64,000 bases of DNA from an uncultured Clostridia bacterium (GTDB lineage: Bacteria > Bacillota > Clostridia > Oscillospirales > Ruminococcaceae): assembly GCA_947623585.1 (NCBI GenBank), contig CANQHA010000001.1, forward strand, positions 186,001-250,000. The letters are read 5' to 3'. The position numbers and the translations under genes are program-made. Below the pieces are notes generated by a model. The model worked only from the letters and a program-made list of their open reading frames with translations. It searched no databases and was not told where the DNA came from. This document shows, in pieces, positions 27,075 through 45,723 of the stretch (positions are counted from its first letter, which is position 1; each line of letters opens with the position of its first letter).

Positions 27075-28109
27075 TCAGACAAGCTCGGCGATGTCGTATA
27101 TCAGGCGTTCCGACTTCTCCCACCCGAGGCAGGCGTCGGTTATCGACTTGCCGTAAACGCACTCGCCTATCTTCTGCGAGCCGTCCTCGATATAGCTTTC
27201 TATCATGAAGCCCTTGACAAGCCTTTTGATATCGTCGGAATGGCGGCAGCTGTACAAGACCTCCTTGCATATCCTCGGCTGCTGGAAGGGATCTTTGCCC
27301 GAGTTCGAGTGGTTGGTGTCGATGATGAGCGCGGGGTTTTTCAGCTCGCTTTTTGAATACGACTCGCAGAGGTGCAAAAGGTCCTCATAGTGATAGTTCG
27401 GCATATTCTGACCGTGCTTGTTGACGTATCCGCGCAAAATAGCGTGCGCAAGCGGGTTGCCCGAGGAATGGACCTCCCACCCGCGATAGATGAACGTGTG
27501 CGGGTGCTGAGCCGCCGATATCGCGTTCATCATCACCGAAATGTCGCCGCTCATCGGGTTTTTCATTCCGACCGGGATATTAAGTCCGCTCGCGGTAAGG
27601 CGGTGGTGCTGGTCTTCAACCGAACGCGCGCCGACCGCGACGTAGCCGATTATATCGCTCAGATAGCGGTGATTCTCGGGGTAAAGCATTTCATCGGCGC
27701 AGGAGAAGCCCGATTCGCTCAAAGCGCGCATATGCAGGTTTCTTATCGCGACTATGCCCTTGAACATATCCGGCTTTTCGGTGGGGTCGGGCTGATGCAG
27801 CAGCCCTTTATAGCCGTCGCCGGTCGTTCTCGGCTTGCCGGTATAGATGCGCGGAATGATGAAAATTTTGTCCTTGACCTTCTCCTGAACCTCGCGGAGG
27901 CGGGAGATATAATCGAGAACGCTGTCGGCGTTGTCGGCCGAGCAGGGACCGATTATAAGGATAAATTTATCCGACCTCCCCGAAAAAATGTCGGCAAGCT
28001 CGTCGGCCCGCTGCTTAACTACCGCCGCAAGCTGCTCCGAAAGCGGAAACATCTTCTTGACCTCCTGCGGGATAGGCAGCTTTCTTTCAAAAACCATGTT
28101 CATATGCAT
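27075..28109 (-). CDS. aroF: 3-deoxy-7-phosphoheptulonate (DAHP) synthase, type I AroG-like
   Basis: First step of the shikimate pathway: phosphoenolpyruvate plus erythrose 4-phosphate. 344 residues in the E. coli AroFGH style: IIGPCSADNADSVLDY, YTGKPRTTGDGYKG, NPMSGDISV, and the C-terminal SNSGKDPFQQ and ESYIEDGSQ. No ACT or chorismate mutase domain is fused here; the mutase is on AroB instead. The N-terminus resembles the part that binds feedback amino acids in the E. coli isozymes. It is the last gene of the aromatic operon, 30 bp after tyrA. Confidence 0.95.
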   Translation of the reverse strand: MHMNMVFERKLPIPQEVKKMFPLSEQLAAVVKQRADELADIFSGRSDKFILIIGPCSADNADSVLDYISRLREVQEKVKDKIFIIPRIYTGKPRTTGDGYKGLLHQPDPTEKPDMFKGIVAIRNLHMRALSESGFSCADEMLYPENHRYLSDIIGYVAVGARSVEDQHHRLTASGLNIPVGMKNPMSGDISVMMNAISAAQHPHTFIYRGWEVHSSGNPLAHAILRGYVNKHGQNMPNYHYEDLLHLCESYSKSELKNPALIIDTNHSNSGKDPFQQPRICKEVLYSCRHSDDIKRLVKGFMIESYIEDGSQKIGECVYGKSITDACLGWEKSERLIYDIAELV

Positions 28110-28139
28110 TCCAGCCTTTCTGCTTTAAAAATCTTCTCG

Positions 28140-28994
28140 TTATCTGTCAAACTTGGCGCGGCGTTCGCTTGAATATTTCATCATCTCGCGCATACCGTCA
28201 ACGTCGTCGTTTTCTATCATCTTTTTGAGCCTGTCGAACTGCGCCTCAAAGAGGTTCATCTGGTCCAAAAGCGCCTTTTTGTTGGCCAAAAAAAGCTCAG
28301 ACCACATCAAATCGTTTATCCTTGCTATCCTCGTCAGGTCGCGGAAAGAGTCGCCGGTGAACTTTTCGATGTTCTCGGCGTCGTTGCAGGTCATAAGCGA
28401 CACCGCGATGCAGTGGGTGAGCTGCGAAACGAAGCCTATCATCTCGTCGTGTTCCTCGGGGCTCAGCTCTGCCACCTGCGCAAAACCGAGCAAAAGTCCG
28501 AGCTCGCGGCAGGTCTCGATGGCCTCGGGGGTGTTTTTTTCGGTCGGGGTGACGATGTAGTTAGCACCGTGAAAAATCCTTGAAGTCGCGTTCTCGACTC
28601 CGTAGACCTCACGCCCCGCCATCGGGTGTGCGGCGATGAATTCGCAGTCGGGTCGAAGCATCTCCTGAATCTTATAAACCACCGAGCCCTTGACGCCGGT
28701 GACGTCTGTGAGAAGCGCTCCGGGCTTCAAAAGCCGCTGATTTTTTTCGAGCCACTCTATAAAGATGTGCGGATAAAGCGCAAAAACAACGATGTCGGCC
28801 TCTTTCACAAGGTTCTCTCTGACCTCGGCCGCGCCGTCGTCTATCATCTTATGCTCCAAGGCGTAGTCTATCGAGCGCTGCGAACGGGTTATCGCCGTGA
28901 CCCGAAAACCGTAGCGTTTCAGCGCCTCGGCATAGCTTCCGCCGATAAGCCCGAGCCCGACGATAAGTATATTTTTTTTGACGTCAATCATCAT
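28140..28994 (-). CDS. tyrA: Prephenate dehydrogenase
   Basis: Oxidatively decarboxylates prephenate to 4-hydroxyphenylpyruvate, the tyrosine branch. 284 residues: the Rossmann motif ILIVGLGLIGGSYAEAL, then DVTGVKG, FIAAHPMAGREVYG and the HDEMIGFVSQLTHCIAV helix. No ACT domain is present, so feedback by tyrosine may rely on transcription rather than on this protein. Start with GGAGGAAAAAG. It is preceded by aroA (15 bp) and followed by DAHP synthase. No prephenate dehydratase gene is in the window. Confidence 0.95.
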   Translation of the reverse strand: MMIDVKKNILIVGLGLIGGSYAEALKRYGFRVTAITRSQRSIDYALEHKMIDDGAAEVRENLVKEADIVVFALYPHIFIEWLEKNQRLLKPGALLTDVTGVKGSVVYKIQEMLRPDCEFIAAHPMAGREVYGVENATSRIFHGANYIVTPTEKNTPEAIETCRELGLLLGFAQVAELSPEEHDEMIGFVSQLTHCIAVSLMTCNDAENIEKFTGDSFRDLTRIARINDLMWSELFLANKKALLDQMNLFEAQFDRLKKMIENDDVDGMREMMKYSSERRAKFDR

Positions 28995-29009
28995 AGCTTT
29001 TTCCTCCGC

Positions 29010-30209
29010 TCAGAAAATTTCAAGGCGCGCGCCCAGCTTTTTTATATCCTCAAAAAACGAGGGATATGTCTTTCTGACGGCTTCAGCGCCCTCGATGACC
29101 CCGCCGGTAACGGTCGCCATCACCGCAAGAGACATCACGATTCGGTGGTCGTTGTGCCCGCAAAGCGGCTCGCCCGGGGCTTTGAGAGAACATTTCGGCA
29201 CGGTTATCTCGTTCTCGCTGCAAATAATTTTTACCCCGAACTTTTCAAGCTCCTCTTTCATGGCCTCGCCTCGGTCGCTCTCTTTTATGGCGAGCCTGCG
29301 GGTGCCGGTCAGCTTGCAGCCGTTATTCAGCGCCGCCGCCGCCATAAGCACCGGCCCGAGGTCGGGGCAGTCCGAAATGTCTATCTCGGGGCTGCCGGAA
29401 AGGATATCGGCAAAATGTTTTTTATAAATCCTGTCGCCCTGAGCGGAATTATCCGACAATCCTGTGACCTTTACAGCGCCACCCGCGCAGTTGAAAGCGT
29501 CCAAAAACGCGGCGTTCGAGTAATCCCCCTCGACGGTGACGTTGCGTGGCGAAAGGCTTTTGCCGACAACTTCAACGGTCAGAGGGTCGATAAAGCGCGC
29601 TTTGCCGCCGAAAGCCTCTATCGCCCGGAGCGTCAGCTCGACATAGGAGCGGCTCTCAAAGGGCGGGGCGATCTCGATTTTTCCGACGCCGTCGCAGCAA
29701 AGAAGCGCAAATATCATGCCGCTGATAAACTGGCTCGAAACCGAGCCGTCAAGCCGGTAAACGCCGCTTGAAAGCCGCCCGCAGACGGTCACGGCGCCGT
29801 CGCTCTTATATAAAAAGCCGTGCTCGCGGCAAAGGTCGGAATAGACCTTCTGAGGGCGCTCCATCAGCCTTTTCGAGCCCTCGAGCCTAATCTCGCAGCC
29901 CAAAGTCAGGCAAAGCGGGATCAGAAAGCGCAGGGTGTTTCCGCTTTCGCGGCAGTTGAGGGTCGGCGTGATGTTTTTTAAAAAGCCCGAGCCGTCAACT
30001 TCGACCTCGCCGCCGTTTGCCCGGCACTTTGCGCCGAGGGCGTTAAGGCAGTCTATCATCGCGAGGACGTCCTCGGAGTAGTCAAGGTTATCTACTTTAC
30101 AGACCCCGCCGGATATCGCAGCAAGAAGGAGCATTCGGTGAGCGGCGCTTTTCGAGGGCGGAGCCTTGATCTCTCCGCAAAGGCGGGATTTTTCAATCTT
30201 GACGGTCAT
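29010..30209 (-). CDS. aroA: 3-phosphoshikimate 1-carboxyvinyltransferase (EPSP synthase)
   Basis: Transfers the enolpyruvyl group to shikimate 3-phosphate. 399 residues, slightly short of the family's roughly 430: KAPPSKSAAHRMLL, NCRESGNTLRFLIPL (the LRF motif), VSSQFISGM, LDAFNCAGG and KESDRGEAM. It overlaps aroQ by 4 bp (ATGA type), indicating coupling. Sixth cistron of the aromatic operon when the leader peptide is counted out. Confidence 0.96.
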   Translation of the reverse strand: MTVKIEKSRLCGEIKAPPSKSAAHRMLLLAAISGGVCKVDNLDYSEDVLAMIDCLNALGAKCRANGGEVEVDGSGFLKNITPTLNCRESGNTLRFLIPLCLTLGCEIRLEGSKRLMERPQKVYSDLCREHGFLYKSDGAVTVCGRLSSGVYRLDGSVSSQFISGMIFALLCCDGVGKIEIAPPFESRSYVELTLRAIEAFGGKARFIDPLTVEVVGKSLSPRNVTVEGDYSNAAFLDAFNCAGGAVKVTGLSDNSAQGDRIYKKHFADILSGSPEIDISDCPDLGPVLMAAAALNNGCKLTGTRRLAIKESDRGEAMKEELEKFGVKIICSENEITVPKCSLKAPGEPLCGHNDHRIVMSLAVMATVTGGVIEGAEAVRKTYPSFFEDIKKLGARLEIF

Positions 30210-30640
30210 TTTCCGCTCCTTTTTGCCAAAAGATCGACCGCTTCAAGGTATCCGTCGGTCCCGCGACCCGATATCGTAGCGATACAGGCGGCTCTGAGAT
30301 AGCTTGTTCTGCGAAATTCCTCGCGGCTGTCAACGTCCGAGATATGCACCTCGACCGTCGGGACGGATACGGCTTTCAGAGCGTCGAGAATGGCTACGCT
30401 CGTGTGGGTATAGGCTCCCGGGTTGATAACGATGCCGTCAAAGCTGCCGTAGGCCTCCTGTATCCAATCGACAAGGTCGCCCTCGTGGTTAGACTGGCGG
30501 CAGTCGACGTCAAGCTGTTTAGCTTTACAGTGCTCGGTTATCTTTTCGATCAGCGAGGCATAAGTCTCCCGCCCATAGATGTCGGGTTCGCGAATTCCGA
30601 GCATATTGAGGTTGGGGCCGTTAAGAACTAAAATCTTCAT
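30206..30640 (-). CDS. aroQ: 3-dehydroquinate dehydratase, type II
   Basis: Dehydrates 3-dehydroquinate to 3-dehydroshikimate. 144 residues of the small dodecameric class: MKILVLNGPNLNMLGIREPDIYG, RQSNHEGDLVDWIQEA, VINPGAYTHTSVAI and EVHISDVDSREEFRRTSY, carrying the usual Tyr, His and Arg residues. The start is ATG 30640, just inside the end of aroE-aroK; an upstream in-frame TTG overlaps the ribosome site GAAAGG and is rejected. Confidence 0.96.
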   Translation of the reverse strand: MKILVLNGPNLNMLGIREPDIYGRETYASLIEKITEHCKAKQLDVDCRQSNHEGDLVDWIQEAYGSFDGIVINPGAYTHTSVAILDALKAVSVPTVEVHISDVDSREEFRRTSYLRAACIATISGRGTDGYLEAVDLLAKRSGK

Positions 30641-30644
30641 TTTT

Positions 30645-31877
30645 TCAAAGCCTTTCAATAATCATTTCGGCGTTAAGATCCGCATTATCGGCGGGTTTTA
30701 TGATAACGTCGGCGGTTTCGGCATATCTTTTTTGCCGCTCGGCGTATCTCTTTTTTATAGCCTCGCGATCGCTCGCCGTCGGTCTGTCCGAGGTCGGCTT
30801 GAGCCAGTCTGGATCTCTGTCAAGCAAAAATACTTTACAGTTTTGCCTGAGCGCTTCTACATTTTCGTCCCGCAAAATCGCCCCTCCGCCCGTCGCGATG
30901 ACCACGCCGCTTCTTCGGCAAACGTCTTTTAAAACCTCTGTCTCAATGGCGCGAAAGCCTTGCTCCCCCTTTTCGGCGAAGATGTCGGTAATAGGCTTTC
31001 CGACGCGTGAAACTATCTCTGCGTCGAGATCGATAAACTCTCTTTCAAGCATTTTCGCGACGATTTTTCCGATGGTCGATTTTCCGCTCCCCGGCATTCC
31101 GGTCAGCGCAACGCTTTGCTTCATTTTGAGAATTGTGCCGAAAATGCGGTCGATCTCGCTTTTGTCGATGAAAACGTCTCTGAAAATTTCCGAGGCGCAG
31201 ACCGCCTGCGCGACGAGCATATAAAGCCCGCCCTCGGCGTTCAGCCCGCGTTTTTTCGCCGCGAGAACGAGCGGCGTTCTCAGCGGGTTGAATACCGCGT
31301 CGGCGACCCCCTCGAGCCTCGGAAAAAGGCCGATATCAATAGGCGAGGCGTAGTTTTCGGGGTACATTCCGACCGGAGTGGTGTTGATGATGACCTCGGC
31401 GTTTTTGCAGCGCTCGGCGGCCTCGGAGTATGTAATAACGCCCTCGCCGGCTCTTCTCGAAACGACAAAGACCTCTTTTGCGCCGAGATCCTTTGAAAGC
31501 ACCTGCGCCGTGACCGACGTGCCGCCGGTCCCCAAAACGAGAACGATTTTGTTTTCAACGCTCACGCCGGCTTTTTTGAGAAGCGCTTTCATTCCGAAAT
31601 AGTCGGTATTATAGCCGAAAAGTCTGCCATCGCGGTTCACTACGGTGTTCACCGAGCCTATCCTTTTCGCGACGTCGTTCATTCCGTCGAGATAAGGTAT
31701 GACGTCCTTTTTATAAGGTATCGTGACGTTTATGCCTTTAAAATCGCGCTTTCGCATAAAATCGTCGAGCCCGTCCCCCGGCACCTCGCAAAGGCGATAG
31801 TCGTAATCGCCTATGAGCGAGTGTATTTCCGCGGAAAAGCTGTGCCCGAGCTTTTTTGCAATGCAGCCGAATTCCAA
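30645..31877 (-). CDS. aroE-aroK: Shikimate dehydrogenase-shikimate kinase fusion
   Basis: A 410-residue bifunctional protein. Residues 1 to about 240 are AroE (dehydroshikimate to shikimate): CIAKKLGHSFSAEIH, NVTIPYKKDV with the catalytic Lys, GYNTDYFGM, VLGTGGTS and a C-terminal GLYMLVAQA. Residues about 245-410 are AroK: GMPGSGKST Walker A, DLDAEIV, ATGGGAILR and DRPTAS. Successive pathway steps are therefore joined. The start is TTG 31877, six bases after GGGAGGGG; further upstream the frame runs into the palindromic repeat and gives Arg/Pro-rich non-protein sequence. It is 158 bp from aroC, with a four-way-junction palindrome in the gap. Confidence 0.94.
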   Translation of the reverse strand: MEFGCIAKKLGHSFSAEIHSLIGDYDYRLCEVPGDGLDDFMRKRDFKGINVTIPYKKDVIPYLDGMNDVAKRIGSVNTVVNRDGRLFGYNTDYFGMKALLKKAGVSVENKIVLVLGTGGTSVTAQVLSKDLGAKEVFVVSRRAGEGVITYSEAAERCKNAEVIINTTPVGMYPENYASPIDIGLFPRLEGVADAVFNPLRTPLVLAAKKRGLNAEGGLYMLVAQAVCASEIFRDVFIDKSEIDRIFGTILKMKQSVALTGMPGSGKSTIGKIVAKMLEREFIDLDAEIVSRVGKPITDIFAEKGEQGFRAIETEVLKDVCRRSGVVIATGGGAILRDENVEALRQNCKVFLLDRDPDWLKPTSDRPTASDREAIKKRYAERQKRYAETADVIIKPADNADLNAEMIIERL

Positions 31878-31932
31878 CTTTGTCCCCTCCCTCGGTGAAA
31901 ATTTCTGCGACCGCTTCACCCCGGCGCGTGAC

Positions 31933-32028
31933 GGCGCAGCCTTTCGCCGCGGGCAAAGCCCGCGGCGGGGCTCCGCCCGCCACTGCGGGGGCGGGCGGAG
32001 GCGCGAACGAAGTTCGCAAGGCTGCGCC
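31933..32028. repeat. GC-rich cloverleaf-like palindromic element inside the aromatic operon
   Basis: An outer 11-bp inverted repeat GGCGCAGCCTT / AAGGCTGCGCC (31933-31943 with 32018-32028) encloses three perfect hairpins: 10 bp with loop AAA (31945-31967), 11 bp with an 8-base loop (31971-32000) and 6 bp with loop GAA (32003-32017). Linkers are 0-3 bases, so the whole folds as a compact four-way junction. It lies 8 bp after the aroC stop. It resembles the other palindrome clusters of the window in style. It is not a tRNA. Confidence 0.85.
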
Positions 32029-32035
32029 CCGCGCC

Positions 32036-33139
32036 TCAGTCTTTGTATCCTGCTCCCAAAAAATCGGTGCCGTATCTTTGGGCGAGCAGGTCGCACAGCA
32101 CTATCGCCGCAACACTGTCAACAACGGCCCTCGCGCGGTGGAATATCGCCGGATCGTGCCGGCCGGTGAGCTGCAAAACCGCGTTTTCGCGCTTAATGAA
32201 GTCAACGGTCTCCTGCTGCTTATAGATCGATGAGGTCGGCTTGACCGCGCAGCTGAAAACGATGGGCATTCCGTTTGTTATGCCGCCGTTCACGCCGCCG
32301 TTATGGTTTGTTTTCGTAACTATTTTTTCGCCGCTCATTTTGAACATATCGTTGGCCTCGCTGCCCCTCATTGCGGCAAGCCCGAAGCCGTCGCCGAACT
32401 GAACGCCCTTTATCGCGGGTATGGCGAAAAGCGCGTGCGAAAGAACGCTCTCGACGCTGTCAAAGAACGGCTCGCCAACGCCTGCGGGGAAGCCCGTCAC
32501 CGCGGTCTCCAAAATCCCTCCGACGCTGTCTCCGTCGGCAGCCGCCTTTTCGATCTCCTCTACCATCGCGGCCGAAATCTCTTGGTCGAGCACGGCGAAA
32601 TTCATTGTGTTGAGCATCTTAATCTCGTCCTCATATTCTCCGAATTCTCGGTCCGAGATGCCCGCGCACATTTTTATATGCGTGCCTATCATGATTCCCT
32701 TTGCGGCGAGCGCCGAAACAGCTATCGCTCCGACGGCGGTGAGCGCGGCGGTCACTCTGCCGCTGAAATGTCCGCTCCCGCGATAGTCCTCGAAGCCGTG
32801 ATATTTCACCGAGGCTGTATAGTCGGCGTGTCCGGGTCGGGCAAGGCGGCTCAGCGCAAGATAATCGCTCGATTTGACGTCCTTGTTCGGAATCGCTATA
32901 ACTATCGGAGTTCCGGTGGTTTTGCCGTTGAAAACTCCGCTCAAGATCTCGAATTTATCCTGCTCGACCCTGCTCGTTGAAATTTTTCCGGCAGGTCTGC
33001 GCTTTGTGAGCTGCTCGGCGATGAACCCCTCGTCGATATCTATTCCCGGCGCCATTCCGTCTAAAACCGCTCCTATCGCGGGTCCGTGGCTTTCGCCGAA
33101 AATCGTCACCGAAACGCTTTGTCCGAATGTGTTTTTCAT
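32036..33139 (-). CDS. aroC: Chorismate synthase
   Basis: FMN-dependent elimination of phosphate from EPSP to give chorismate. 367 residues: TIFGESHGPAIG, RRPAGKISTSRVEQDKF, RPGHADYT, YRGSGHFSGRVTA, and a C-terminal GGVNGGITNGMPI and RHDPAIFHRARAV. It overlaps the chorismate mutase-AroB gene by 4 bp. Full family length and no missing motif. Confidence 0.97.
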   Translation of the reverse strand: MKNTFGQSVSVTIFGESHGPAIGAVLDGMAPGIDIDEGFIAEQLTKRRPAGKISTSRVEQDKFEILSGVFNGKTTGTPIVIAIPNKDVKSSDYLALSRLARPGHADYTASVKYHGFEDYRGSGHFSGRVTAALTAVGAIAVSALAAKGIMIGTHIKMCAGISDREFGEYEDEIKMLNTMNFAVLDQEISAAMVEEIEKAAADGDSVGGILETAVTGFPAGVGEPFFDSVESVLSHALFAIPAIKGVQFGDGFGLAAMRGSEANDMFKMSGEKIVTKTNHNGGVNGGITNGMPIVFSCAVKPTSSIYKQQETVDFIKRENAVLQLTGRHDPAIFHRARAVVDSVAAIVLCDLLAQRYGTDFLGAGYKD

Positions 33140-34428
33140 TTTTTTGCCTCCCGTAAGTAATTGTCAAGCAGATCGAAAAGCTGCTCGAAGGTCATGTTTT
33201 CTATCTCGAATTTTCCGACCTCGTTCACCCTGACGGCCGAAACGCCGCCCTTCTGAGATTTTTTGTCGTGAAGCACCGCCGCCTTGATCTTTTCGGGGTC
33301 GGCGCTTATTTCAAGCGGCAGCCCCAGCTTTGAAAGCACATTTTTGAGCCGCTCTCTCACCTCTTCCGAGCACATCGGCAACATTCCGAGCGCAACGCAT
33401 TCGCCGTGGAAAAGCCTGCCGTTTTCGGCGGTCTCAATTCCGTGGCCGATCGTGTGGCCGAAATTCAAAACCTTTCTCAGGCCCGATTCCGTCTCGTCCT
33501 GCTCGACCACCGCCTTTTTGATTTTAAGCGAGCTGGCGATGATGTCGTCAAGCCGGTCGCCCGGCTCAAAGCTCTCAAACCTCTCGAAAAGCTCTTTATC
33601 GAAGCACAGCGCCATTTTAACGGCCTCCGCAAGCCCGCAGGCGGTCTGTCTCGGGTCGAGAGTGGAAAGCACGTCGGGGTCGATGAGCACGAATTTCGGC
33701 TGCCAGAAAGCCCCGACCGTGTTTTTGAAGCCGTCAAGGTCTACCGCGACCTTTCCGCCTATCGAAGAATCTATCTGCGAAAGCGTCGTCGTCGGCACGT
33801 TGTAAAAATCAATCCCGCGCATATAAGCCGCTGCGGCAAACCCCGCAAGGTCGCCGATCACCCCTCCGCCGACCGCTATAACGCAGTCTTTTCGGGTGAA
33901 TCTTTTTTCGAGCATATTTTTCAGCAAAAGTTTAAAGCTGTCAAGATCCTTGGTTTTTTCGCCCTGCGGCAGGGTGACGATATAGCCCTCGGCGCACTGC
34001 TCGGCTAATATTTCGGCATACTCGGGCGGCACGCCGTCGTCGGTAACGATAAGCGCCTTGCGGTCAAGGTCAAGGTGCTTCGCCGCGTTTTTAAGCTCGC
34101 CGCGCCTGACCAAAATATCATAGCTTCTGTCTCCGAGCTCTAACCTTATAAGCCCGTCGCAGGCTTCCGCCCTGTCGCGCTGATATCTTTTCGACACGCC
34201 GATAACTCCGCGCAAAAACTCGGCGTAGTAGCCCTTAAGCTGCTCAGGCACCGCCTCGGAATTTTTTTCGAGCAATGCCGATTCTCTTGCCGAATCAAGG
34301 ACTTTTAGGCCGTTTTCCCTTTTAAAATCGCTCACCTCGCGCACGGCTTCCATGCGTTTTATCCAAAGCGAAGCCATCTCGGCGTCTATCTCGTTGATCT
34401 TTGCGCGGGCGTTTTCAAGTTTGTTCAT
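33136..34428 (-). CDS. aroB: Chorismate mutase-3-dehydroquinate synthase fusion
   Basis: First structural gene of the aromatic operon, 430 residues. Residues 1 to about 88 form an AroQ-class chorismate mutase: LENARAKINEID, the helix with KRMEAVREVSDFKRENG and DSARESALLEK, which keep the usual Arg, Lys, Asp and Glu positions. The rest is a complete dehydroquinate synthase (VTLPQGEKTKDL, AVGGGVIGDLAGFAA, TTTLSQIDSSIGGK, LNFGHTIGHGIE), which cyclises DAHP. The start is ATG 34428, five bases after GGAGG. The fusion joins pathway step 2 to the step that feeds prephenate. Both domains look active. Confidence 0.94.
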   Translation of the reverse strand: MNKLENARAKINEIDAEMASLWIKRMEAVREVSDFKRENGLKVLDSARESALLEKNSEAVPEQLKGYYAEFLRGVIGVSKRYQRDRAEACDGLIRLELGDRSYDILVRRGELKNAAKHLDLDRKALIVTDDGVPPEYAEILAEQCAEGYIVTLPQGEKTKDLDSFKLLLKNMLEKRFTRKDCVIAVGGGVIGDLAGFAAAAYMRGIDFYNVPTTTLSQIDSSIGGKVAVDLDGFKNTVGAFWQPKFVLIDPDVLSTLDPRQTACGLAEAVKMALCFDKELFERFESFEPGDRLDDIIASSLKIKKAVVEQDETESGLRKVLNFGHTIGHGIETAENGRLFHGECVALGMLPMCSEEVRERLKNVLSKLGLPLEISADPEKIKAAVLHDKKSQKGGVSAVRVNEVGKFEIENMTFEQLFDLLDNYLREAKK

Positions 34429-34449: not shown

Positions 34450-34492
34450 AAAAATGCTCCAAAGATTATTCATCACGAATAAGCAGTGGAGC
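34450..34492 (-). terminator. Attenuator terminator of the aromatic operon
   Basis: In the minus-strand RNA GCUCCA pairs with UGGAGC, with an inner TTATTC / GAATAA stem, followed by AUUUUUAU. It lies between the leader peptide and aroB. An alternative stem GAGCAATT / AATTcGCTC (34509-34489, one bulged C) would consume the 5' arm and act as antiterminator. Confidence 0.82.
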
Positions 34493-34515
34493 GAATTTTT
34501 GAATTGCTCGGCTGC

Positions 34516-34554
34516 TCAGCGCTTATAATAAGAATAATCGTGCATTTCAGACAT
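34516..34554 (-). CDS. Tyr-rich leader peptide (attenuation)
   Basis: A 12-codon open frame, MSEMHDYSYYKR, starting at ATG 34554, six bases after a GGGAG ribosome site and about 20 bases after the predicted transcription start. Three of four consecutive codons 7-10 are tyrosine. It is followed by mutually exclusive antiterminator and terminator stems, the classic layout of ribosome-mediated attenuation. When charged tRNA-Tyr is scarce the ribosome would stall on these codons and let transcription continue into the aromatic genes. Peptide and structures are seen directly; the regulatory role is inferred. Confidence 0.8.
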   Translation of the reverse strand: MSEMHDYSYYKR

Positions 34555-34580
34555 GGCGAGACTCCCAAAGTGTTTTTTAT

Positions 34581-34609
34581 ATTGTACGCCTTTAAACGCA
34601 TAAAGTCAA
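34581..34609 (-). promoter_or_regulatory. Sigma-A promoter of the aromatic operon
   Basis: TTGACT (34609-34604), a 17-bp spacer and TACAAT (34586-34581); transcription would start near 34574, just ahead of the leader peptide. Confidence 0.88.
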
Positions 34610-37017: not shown

Positions 37018-38238
37018 TCAGCGGCTGCAATAGCTGTCAAGTATCTGCTTCGGAAGATATTTTTTGACAAATTCGCTCGATTTAGCCTCGCGCTCGGCCT
37101 CCTCAAGGTCGTGCGGAAGCTCTTTAAGCCCCGAAATGCGGCTCTCCTCAGCCGAATAAAGGTCGATATCCACCGCTCTTTCAAGCTCGGCGTTTTCTTT
37201 GAGCCCCTCGAGCCCCGCAAGAATTATCAGCGCGAACGAAAGATAGGGGTTAGCCAAGGGGTCGGGCGATCTGAGCTCGGCCGCCCTGAGATCCAACGAT
37301 TCCCCGACGGGCGCGGGAACCCTTATAAGCTGCGAGCGGTTTTCGCTCGACCATGTGATATATTTCGGCGCCTTGTTCGCCCCGAGCCTTAAATAGGATT
37401 CGGGCGAGGTGTTCAAAAACAGCGTTATTTCGGAAATTCGGTTCATTATCCCGGCGATAATCTTCGGCAAAAGCTCGCCTCTTTCGTTGTTGGCGACCGA
37501 TACCCTGATATGAAAACCGTTTCCCGAGCGGTTTTTCATCGGCTTCGGAGAAAAATCGGCGTAAAGTCCATTTCTTGCGGCAATGGTGCTTACGACCGAG
37601 CGGAAGGTCACCGCGTCGTCGGCGGCTTTAAGCGGGTCCGAGCGCCTGAAATCAATGACGTTCTGCCCGGGTCCCTCGGCGTGGTGCGAGCCCTCGGGCA
37701 GAATACCCATTCTTTCAAGGTCGAGGCAGATTTCACGGCGAACGTTCTCGCCCTTGTCGGCGGGAGCTATATCCATATACCCCGCCTTATCGTAAGGCTC
37801 CGAGGTCGGCTCGCCCTTTTCGTCTCGGTTAAAGAGATAAAATTCGGTCTGCGAGCCGATATAGAAGCTGTAACCCTCTTTTTCGGCGAACTCGACGACC
37901 TTTTTGAGAAAGCTCCTCGTGTCGGGCAGAAATTCTCTGCCGTCGGGGTAAGTTATTGTGCAAAACATTCTTACGACCTTTCCGTGCTCGGGCCGCCAAG
38001 GCAGCACCGCAAGTGTCGCGGGGTCGGGGTGCAAAAACAGGTCGGAATGTACTATGCCTCCGAAACCGGCGATAGCCGAAGCGTCGATGGCTATGCCGTA
38101 TTTAAAGGCGCGTTCAAGCTCTCCCGGCATGACGGAGATATTCTTCTGTCTGCCGAAAACGTCAACGAAAGCAAGACGTATAAACTTAACGTCCTCCTCG
38201 CGGCAATACTGTATTGTCTCTTCCTGAGTATAGGTCAT
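37018..38238 (-). CDS. Glutamine synthetase type I homologue with degenerate active-site residues
   Basis: 406 residues in the GS-I fold: a beta-grasp N-terminal part (FIRLAFVDVFGRQKNISV) and a catalytic barrel (QTEFYLF, NRSQLIRVPAP, LRSPDPLANPYL). Positions that carry glutamate in active enzymes are changed. The HHEVAPGQHEIDF block reads HHAEGPGQNVIDF, losing the first and last Glu as aligned, and the flap block GYEAP reads GANKAP, putting Lys for the catalytic flap Glu. GSGMH is GNGFH, keeping the His. It may be inactive, regulatory, or specific for another amine. It lies in the ANTAR/glutamate synthase operon. A separate type III GS (43636-45723) looks fully functional. The fold is certain; altered function is inferred. 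Confidence 0.85.
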   Translation of the reverse strand: MTYTQEETIQYCREEDVKFIRLAFVDVFGRQKNISVMPGELERAFKYGIAIDASAIAGFGGIVHSDLFLHPDPATLAVLPWRPEHGKVVRMFCTITYPDGREFLPDTRSFLKKVVEFAEKEGYSFYIGSQTEFYLFNRDEKGEPTSEPYDKAGYMDIAPADKGENVRREICLDLERMGILPEGSHHAEGPGQNVIDFRRSDPLKAADDAVTFRSVVSTIAARNGLYADFSPKPMKNRSGNGFHIRVSVANNERGELLPKIIAGIMNRISEITLFLNTSPESYLRLGANKAPKYITWSSENRSQLIRVPAPVGESLDLRAAELRSPDPLANPYLSFALIILAGLEGLKENAELERAVDIDLYSAEESRISGLKELPHDLEEAEREAKSSEFVKKYLPKQILDSYCSR

Positions 38239-43549: not shown

Positions 43550-43566
43550 GACAGACATTGAAGGCA

Positions 43567-43610
43567 AAGGCGTCTTCGGGTTTTGTTCCCGAGGGCGCCT
43601 TCTCTTTTTT
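43567..43610 (+). terminator. Terminator at the very 5' end of the type III GS transcript
   Basis: A 14-bp stem (43567-43580 with 43588-43601, two G-T wobbles) with loop TTTTGTT is followed by CTCTTTTTT. It begins about 11 bases after the predicted start of transcription and precedes the GS ribosome site by some 12 bases. The wobbles favour function in the plus-strand RNA. Confidence 0.82.
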
Positions 43611-43635
43611 CCGAAAAAACATGGAGGTATCAACA

Positions 43636-45723
43636 ATGGAAAATGTATCAGACTATTTCGGCAGCCTTGTTTTTGACGACAGAGTTATGAAAGCCACCCT
43701 CTCGTCCTCGGTTTACAGGTCTCTGAAAAAGACCATCGACGAGGGCGCAAGGCTTGACATTTCGGTTGCAAACGCCGTTGCCGAGGCCATGAAAGACTGG
43801 GCCGTTTCAAAGGGAGCCACCCACTATACCCACTGGTTCCAGCCGCTCACCGGCATCACCGCCGAAAAGCACGACAGCTTTATTTCGCCCGCGCCCGACG
43901 GCAGAGTTTTGATGGAATTCTCCGGAAAAGAACTCATCAAGGGCGAGCCCGACGCTTCGAGCTTCCCCTCGGGCGGTCTCAGGGCGACCTTTGAGGCGAG
44001 GGGCTATACCGCATGGGACCCGACCTCTTACGCCTTTATAAAAGGTAAGACCCTCTGCATTCCTACCGCGTTCTGCTCATACGGCGGCGAAGCGCTTGAC
44101 AAAAAGACCCCGCTTCTTCGCTCGATGGAGGCTTTGAACAAGCAGGCGCTGAGAATTTTAAGGCTTTTCGGCAACACCGAAGTCAAATGCGTTAAAACCT
44201 CGGTCGGCCCCGAGCAGGAATATTTCCTCGTAGACAAGGCGCTCTACGATCAGCGCCCCGACCTCATCTATACCGGCAGAACGCTTTTCGGAAGCCTTCC
44301 GCCGAAAGGTCAGGAGCTTGACGACCACTATTTCGGAGTTATCAAGCCGAGAGTCGCGGCCTATATGGCTGACCTCAACGAGGAGCTCTGGAAGCTCGGA
44401 ATACTTGCAAAAACCGAGCACAACGAGGTCGCGCCCGCTCAGCACGAGCTTGCGCCGATCTACTCTACGACAAACATCGCCACCGACCACAACCAGCTCA
44501 CCATGGAGATTATGCAAAAGGTCGCCGCAAAGCACGGGCTCGTCTGCCTGCTTCACGAGAAGCCCTTTGCGGGTGTGAACGGCTCGGGCAAGCACAACAA
44601 CTGGTCGATAGCCACCGACACCGGAATCAACCTTCTCGCGCCGGGAGAGACCCCCTATGAGAACGCGCAGTTCCTTCTGTTCCTCGTCGCGGTCATCAAG
44701 GCGGTCGACGACTATCAGGATCTTCTGAGACTTGCCGTTGCTACCGCCGGAAACGACCACCGCCTCGGCGCAAACGAAGCTCCTCCGGCAGTTGTTTCAA
44801 TGTTCCTCGGCAACGAGCTTCAGGCCGTCCTCGACGCCATTGAGACCGACACGCCCTATGGCGGAGCGGAGAAAACGACGATGAAGCTCGGCGTGCACGT
44901 TCTGCCGAGATTCCAGCGCGACAACACCGACCGCAACCGCACCTCGCCTTTCGCGTTCACCGGCAACAAGTTCGAGTTCAGAATGCTCGGCTCGTCAAAC
45001 TCAATCGCCTGCGCGAACATCATGCTCAACTCGGCGGTAGCGGAATCGCTCAAGCAGTTCGCCGACGAGCTTGAAAAGGCCGACGACTTTGAAAAATCGC
45101 TCCACGAGGTCATCAAGAAGACCATCAAGGAGCACAAGAGGATAATCTTCAACGGCAACGGCTATGACGACAGTTGGATAGCCGAGGCCGAAAAGAGAGG
45201 GCTTCTGAACCTTAAGACCACCCCCGACGCTATGCCGAGGCTTTTGGACAAGAAAAACGTCGATATGCTCACCGCGCACAAGGTCTACTCCAAGGCGGAA
45301 ATTGAATCCCGCACCGAGATAATGCTTGAAAACTATGTCAAGACGGTGAACATCGAAGCCCTGACTATGGTCGATATGTCTCGCAAAATGATTATGCCGG
45401 CTATCGAGGATTACATATCAGAGCTTGCAAAGACCGCTTTCAACAAAAAAGAAATAGGCGTCGATGCAAAATACGAAAAGACGCTTATCTCAAAGCTGAG
45501 CGACCTTTTGGATCAGATCGGCGCGGCGACGGAGGCTCTCGACGAAAAGATCGCCGATTACAAGAAGATATCCGACGTCACCGAGGCTTCTTACTTCATC
45601 CGCGACTCGATTATCCCCGCTATGGACGCGCTCCGTGCTCCGGCTGACAAGGCCGAGGCCGTTACGGACGAGAAATTCTGGAGATATCCGACCTACGGAA
45701 AACTTCTGTTCGGCGTAAGATAA
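43636..45723 (+). CDS. glnN: Glutamine synthetase type III
   Basis: ATP-dependent synthesis of glutamine from glutamate and ammonia; the large GS class common in Bacteroides and clostridia. 695 residues: [18 protein letters not shown], the [20 protein letters not shown] block, [48 protein letters not shown] and [16 protein letters not shown]. The key Glu and Arg residues are kept, unlike the GS-I homologue on the other strand. The start is ATG 43636, eight bases after GGAGG; in-frame codons further upstream translate the terminator. First gene of a plus-strand nitrogen run. Confidence 0.97.

Follow-up and report, generated by a model that had tools for sequence, protein, structure and literature searches.

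A putative tyrosine-codon transcription attenuator ahead of a seven-cistron aromatic operon in an uncultured Clostridia bacterium

We consider that the leader of the seven-cistron aromatic operon in the 64-kb stretch of DNA analysed here (the window) is, with a probability of roughly 80%, a ribosome-mediated transcription attenuator sensing charged tRNA-Tyr, its counterparts in relatives sensing Tyr and/or Phe. The operon would very probably be turned on under tyrosine shortage. This attenuation reading, first put forward in an initial annotation of the sequence, is supported by our analyses, and the conservation of the leader is stronger evidence for it than the chance tests on the window itself. 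When Tyr-tRNA is ample, the ribosome would reach the stop codon of a short leader frame and cover the 5' half of an antiterminator (region 2), leaving the 3' half (region 3) free, so that a terminator would form and transcription would stop ahead of the first cistron, a chorismate mutase-AroB fusion gene (CM-aroB). When Tyr-tRNA is scarce, the ribosome would stall three to six codons upstream of the stop, regions 2 and 3 would pair, the terminator would be blocked and all seven cistrons would be transcribed. We infer that the frame is translated, that Tyr shortage stalls the ribosome on it, that termination takes place in vivo, and that the antiterminator is the first of the two hairpins to form and stays in place.

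The leader and its operon

The CM-aroB leader region spans 34609-34426 on the minus strand (Table 1). The promoter, Shine-Dalgarno (SD) sequence, 12-codon Tyr frame, GAGC/GCTC stem, GCTCCA/TGGAGC terminator, T-run and aroB of the initial annotation were all confirmed, and gene annotation bears out its seven aromatic cistrons; its competing stem was right as regards GAGC/GCTC but lacked the outer half of the antiterminator, and the inner hairpin of the terminator had also been missed. Antiterminator and terminator are mutually exclusive, as the segment GCTC is common to both. The frame has three Tyr codons and zero Phe. By eye, a similar TTGACT-type promoter-like site is seen at the same position in all 13 CM-aroB loci of the genus. 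The promoter spacer (34602-34585, minus strand) is palindrome-like (TATGCGTTTAAAGGCGTA), and its GGCGTA recurs in the majority of relatives. Many of the 13 loci also have, ca. 50-61 nt 5' of the -35, a GTTGAAAACTAT-like motif (34671-34660, minus strand, in the window). Both are possible operators.

Table 1 Features of the CM-aroB leader and operon in the window
Feature	Position	Strand	Remarks
Promoter-like site TTGACT-17-TACAAT	34581..34609	-	10/12 consensus positions, 17-nt spacer
-35-like TTGACT	34609-34604	-	
-10-like TACAAT	34586-34581	-	
Shine-Dalgarno GGGAG	34562..34566	-	7 nt ahead of ATG 34554-34552; read from sequence
Putative leader frame MSEMHDYSYYKR	34516..34554	-	12 codons; Tyr = codons 7, 9, 10; stop TGA 34518-34516
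Region 2, antiterminator 5' half TGAGCAG..GAGC	34506..34518	-	starts at leader stop codon
Region 3, antiterminator 3' half GCTC..CTGCTTA	34480..34492	-	GCTCCA doubles as terminator 5' arm
Inner antiterminator, GAGC/GCTC	34509-34506 / 34492-34489	-	
Outer antiterminator half, TGAGCAG/CTGCTTA	34518-34512 / 34486-34480	-	
Predicted terminator GCTCCA..TTATTC/GAATAA..TGGAGC + TTTTT	34450..34492	-	folding, alignment pairing
Terminator outer stem, GCTCCA/TGGAGC	34492-34487 / 34461-34456	-	
Terminator inner hairpin, TTATTC/GAATAA	34482-34477 / 34471-34466	-	
T-run TTTTT	34454-34450	-	
CM-aroB fusion, first cistron	33139..34428	-	start ATG 34428-34426; aroB above NCBIfam cut-off, CM_2 above Pfam cut-off
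aroC, aroE-aroK fusion, aroQ, aroA, prephenate dehydrogenase, DAHP synthase (other six cistrons)	27075..33139	-	

Some best matches in the operon, e.g., aroA, fall under the NCBIfam curated cut-off. argG begins ca. 150 bp past the seven aromatic cistrons behind a separate promoter-like site, and the arg genes were therefore left out of the operon count. Elsewhere in the window, an ANTAR-domain protein (PF03861; 36378-36941, minus strand) adjoins a glutamine synthetase gene (37018-38238), with a type III glutamine synthetase (43558-45723) nearby. On another contig, a second DAHP synthase (G000:C4:52079-53712; L139, L205, L208) is followed after ca. 0.4 kb by the only prephenate dehydratase (PDT) match of the genome; the survey rule given below revealed no leader and no T-box motif ahead of this synthase. 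Ten T-box matches (E <= 0.001) were recovered from the same genome, all outside the window, ahead of hisS, tyrS, trpE, leuA, valS, alaS, cysS, pheS, an acyl-CoA-ligase-like gene and a gene without an NCBIfam match. The two above the Rfam cut-off (93) are those of hisS and tyrS; those of trpE (91.8 bits) and pheS (61.1) lie under it.

Chance controls on the window gave 0 plus-strand and 2 minus-strand frames passing a 3-of-8 rule (SD-preceded frame, 7-38 codons, at least three Tyr/Phe including at least two Tyr within 8 codons). Dinucleotide shuffling of the window leader (300 shuffles) produced such a frame in 1.3% of cases, and shuffling of the leaders of all loci (300 per locus) did so in 1.3-7.3%, the 4-of-8 rule of the survey being satisfied in 0-2%. 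The terminator segment folds with a z of -2.56 (1 of 200 shuffles not beaten) and the antiterminator segment with a z of -1.80 (8 of 200 not beaten); the leader as a whole is unexceptional (z -0.86, 31 of 200 shuffles folding equally well). A terminator scanner listed zero terminators between 33900 and 34900, since its rule permits loops of 3-8 nt only and the interrupted stem falls outside it. Rfam release 15 (4227 families) returned no match within the window at the gathering score.

Conservation and alternative structures in the genus

CM-aroB was identified (E <= 1e-100) in 13 of 31 genus genomes. The initial annotation had proposed looking in relatives for conserved codons and covarying stems, and took relatives without the peptide as evidence against it: 12 of the 13 loci keep an aromatic-rich leader frame and the antiterminator covaries (see below), but one genome, G018 (L014/L091), has CM-aroB and the promoter without the frame. 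Ahead of the RBS, G018 carries a short hairpin and a T-run. Besides that of the window, the frames read MKNSYVYYFYYSL, MNTYFGYYYFT, MSAVTDFGFYYYFII, MKSNNYYYFYYKS..., MKTCFFYFYYKF..., MAITNASFFYYYND, MLRFSGYYYYFNS, MVNSRFYYFYYKI..., MSGRFYFYYYR, MKRYGYYYFYNS and MNLNFGYFYYYI. Counting the last six core codons in each of the 12 frames gives 44 Tyr and 18 Phe out of 72, and the last four core positions are all Tyr or Phe save for a single Ser, that of the window, whose frame ranks lowest of the 12 in aromatic content and fails the 4-of-8 rule. The description as a Tyr-codon leader holds for the window, whose relatives mix Tyr and Phe. Third bases of the core codons vary, and Tyr and Phe interchange among relatives, suggesting that selection acts on codon type.

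A covariance model (R1) of the leader matched 12 of the 31 genus genomes, at one site each and always before CM-aroB; as these are the very sequences used to build it, the new information is that no further copies were found. A search of 394 genomes of the order gave 13 matches at E <= 1, three in genus members (below 1e-13) and ten in others (0.176 or worse), and we rejected a wider spread of the exact window-type RNA. A pattern scan of genome contigs gave nine stretches, all from uncultured Clostridia bacterium, isolate Lapin-... (presumably rabbit, going by the name). Judged by eye, region 2 and the leader stop codon overlap in six of the 12 sequences and abut in three, and in three (L006, L007 and L010, from G003, G010 and G005) the stop is lost, CGA replacing it and the frames continuing (RAAE...), to terminate within the terminator in L006 and L010. 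These three stop-less relatives fit the attenuation model poorly.

On an alignment of the 12 leaders (A2), antiterminator pairing holds in 90.9% of cells, as compared with 31.1-54.5% in slid controls, and RNAalifold picks the antiterminator unprompted. Its covariation score (0.229 vs 0.134 shuffled) and its both-side cells (7 vs 2.8 shuffled) were each equalled by 0 of 500 shuffles, although kinship of the sequences alone can beat such shuffles; the two pairs with both-side change were equalled by 79 of 500, and the further pair types by 158 of 500. Terminator pairing holds in 91.4% of cells, with weak covariation that is not above shuffles on most measures. RNAalifold found no conserved protector (1:2) stem among the 12 sequences; an untranslated leader may consequently default to read-through, and we do not file the window leader as a four-segment trp-type attenuator.

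Ribosome positions were simulated with ViennaRNA by masking a footprint that begins 17 nt before the first base of the A-site codon and ends 12 nt from that base, the ribosome covering ca. 12 nt past the translated codon according to PMC4833913. Within this folding model, and for a transcript truncated ahead of the terminator 3' arm, ribosome position gates the antiterminator. With the ribosome at the stop codon the predicted antiterminator probability is 0.00-0.15 (12/12 leaders, the low value in L006 and L010 arising because region 3 rather than region 2 is covered), with no ribosome it is 0.65-1.00 (12/12), and with stalls at core aromatic codons it is at least 0.54 in 65 of 68 cases, the low ones being F13 of L005, Y10 of L011 and F12 of L007. 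In the full leader at equilibrium, a ribosome at the stop gives a terminator probability of at least 0.9 in nine of 12 leaders (L007 0.64, L006 and L010 0.0); with no ribosome the antiterminator is ahead in seven, the terminator in four (L004, L005, L009, L013) and L007 is mixed. The stalled window leader prefers the terminator at equilibrium (0.93-0.99). Stalled L004 and L013 behave likewise, as do L005, L007, L009 and L011 at most of their stalls. This equilibrium preference counts against the attenuation reading; it means that the switch must be kinetic, i.e., the antiterminator would form first and persist, and we set folding of the full leader at equilibrium aside as a gauge of such a switch. 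The antiterminators of known attenuators are likewise assumed to form first and last.

Tyr/Phe leaders elsewhere in the genus and the order

Seventeen genus genomes carry another aro operon, with aroF first (gene order by eye in five); for G007 there was no aroB match. A different Tyr-rich leader, e.g., MSKRISGLSGVICFAYYYYFTMR or MRRNYFYNTYYFYFTACFRLM, was found in 15 of the 17; in G019 the contig begins too late for a judgement, and inspection of G026 revealed no convincing leader. An Rfam T-box search of eight of the 17 loci found none. The 15 loci (A3) form a second, unrelated class of Tyr-rich leader, with GCACAGG in the terminator arm and, by eye, a possible protector stem (CTTTACC/GGTAAAG). 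Two aro operon types are present in one genus (L021-L031 and others vs L002-L014), and AroB matches to the window protein are 66-72% or about 36-39% identical depending on the type, a split that suggests operon replacement by transfer. In other families, aromatic leaders precede operons with CM and aroB frames in G057 and G053.

For a survey of the order, in which PF00793 matched 101 of 117 genomes, we took 97 regions upstream of DAHP synthase genes (30 automatic loci and 67 fetched) from the 98 stronger matches (E 3.5e-57 or better). G080:C60, which lies at a contig start, was left out, as were the 31 matches of lower strength (E 4.6e-49 or worse). Under the 4-of-8 rule (SD-preceded frame, 7-38 codons, at least four Tyr/Phe and 2 Tyr in 8), a Tyr/Phe leader was found in 38 of the 97 regions (one of them, L095, doubtful), or in 37 if both counts must fall in one 8-codon stretch, as against 1 of 97 in the reverse-strand control. 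A T-box motif (up to two mismatches) was present in nine regions, one region had both and 51 had neither. The view that a leader peptide is unexpected here in comparison with T-boxes, as the initial annotation had it, does not survive these counts. Rfam T-boxes among the 30 automatic loci are those of L099, L106, L113, L114 and L116, and that of L098 via L082. The 38 leaders are spread over 16 of 21 families, and within 200 nt of 34 of them there is a terminator-like hairpin, as compared with 2.8 on average in shuffles. When 16 other residue pairs were counted, a like excess was seen only for FL (35 vs 3), which contains Phe; LS, SR and LI gave small excesses.

We see evenly balanced odds that aromatic operons of this order of gut Clostridia are largely under Tyr/Phe leader attenuators that have repeatedly arisen or been turned over, T-boxes being kept for aminoacyl-tRNA synthetases, and that the window type is a fail-open form that senses tyrosine and lacks a protector stem.

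Alternative explanations and known systems

The same mechanism could answer mainly to Phe, or to Tyr and Phe jointly, as the Phe share of the core codons would allow and as the Phe-Tyr-Phe aroR leader of Corynebacterium glutamicum, reported in PMC11802643 to answer Phe and not Tyr, would illustrate. We consider this unlikely for the window, where the frame is without Phe and the operon contains prephenate dehydrogenase, whereas the only PDT match of the genome lies elsewhere. Control at the promoter by a DNA-binding protein, with the hairpin as a constant partial terminator and a leader that is not translation-regulated, would be in keeping with the palindrome-like spacer, with the upstream GTTGAAAA-like motif in many of the 13 loci and with the promoter that G018 retains without a leader; it would, however, leave both the covarying antiterminator and the codon-level conservation unexplained, which makes it highly unlikely.

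A TnaC-type arrest, in which the aromatic nascent peptide itself halts the ribosome and a free amino acid or drug is sensed, would account for the constant spacing between the aromatic runs and the stop codon. Yet the runs precede the stop in varying sequence context, Tyr and Phe interchange, flanking residues are unconserved and codon identity is kept, leaving this explanation only a very slim chance. Scarcely credible is a T-box riboswitch: T-boxes do precede aroF-aroB in two genomes of the same order, G037 and G047, but RF00230 has no match over gathering in the window as opposed to ten matches elsewhere in the same genome, and we rejected a T-box reading of the window leader accordingly.

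Accounts of how Firmicutes control their amino acid genes usually centre on T-boxes and proteins. If the window leader is a tyrosine attenuator, its genome, with a tyrS T-box as well, would offer two sensors of tRNA charging that can be compared in one cell, and recurrence across the order makes the exchange of T-boxes and leader peptides testable. Attenuation would also imply working transcription-translation coupling in these bacteria; such coupling is debated for Bacillus. Our searches of open-licence papers found no tyrosine leader in Clostridia, an absence that is weak evidence. The attenuator kind itself is already known; what is unusual is that Tyr dominates, that the protector stem is missing and that such leaders recur across the order.

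The aroR leader of C. glutamicum, ahead of aroF, was reportedly described by Neshat et al. in 2014. As described in PMC11802643 and PMC4046766, it likewise couples a short aromatic-codon leader peptide to attenuation of a DAHP synthase operon, but it belongs to Actinobacteria and has only Phe-Tyr-Phe, besides its different amino acid response. The Acholeplasma uORFC-13-1 motif, as described in PMC8632094, similarly places an aromatic-codon uORF and a terminator ahead of the DAHP synthase gene aroF, with predicted attenuation, though with Phe codons and in another branch of the phylum. His leaders that replace T-boxes in Bacilli and other Firmicutes (PMC2965389, PMC9413887) and the Leu-rich ilv-leu leader of S. 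aureus (PMC5794164) are also leader peptides where T-boxes are common, yet for other amino acids and other operons. With the enterobacterial trp, his and phe leaders, as outlined in PMC11802643, the window type has in common regulatory codons and an antiterminator and a terminator that use a common segment, and differs from them in its Tyr codons and in that no conserved protector stem was found.
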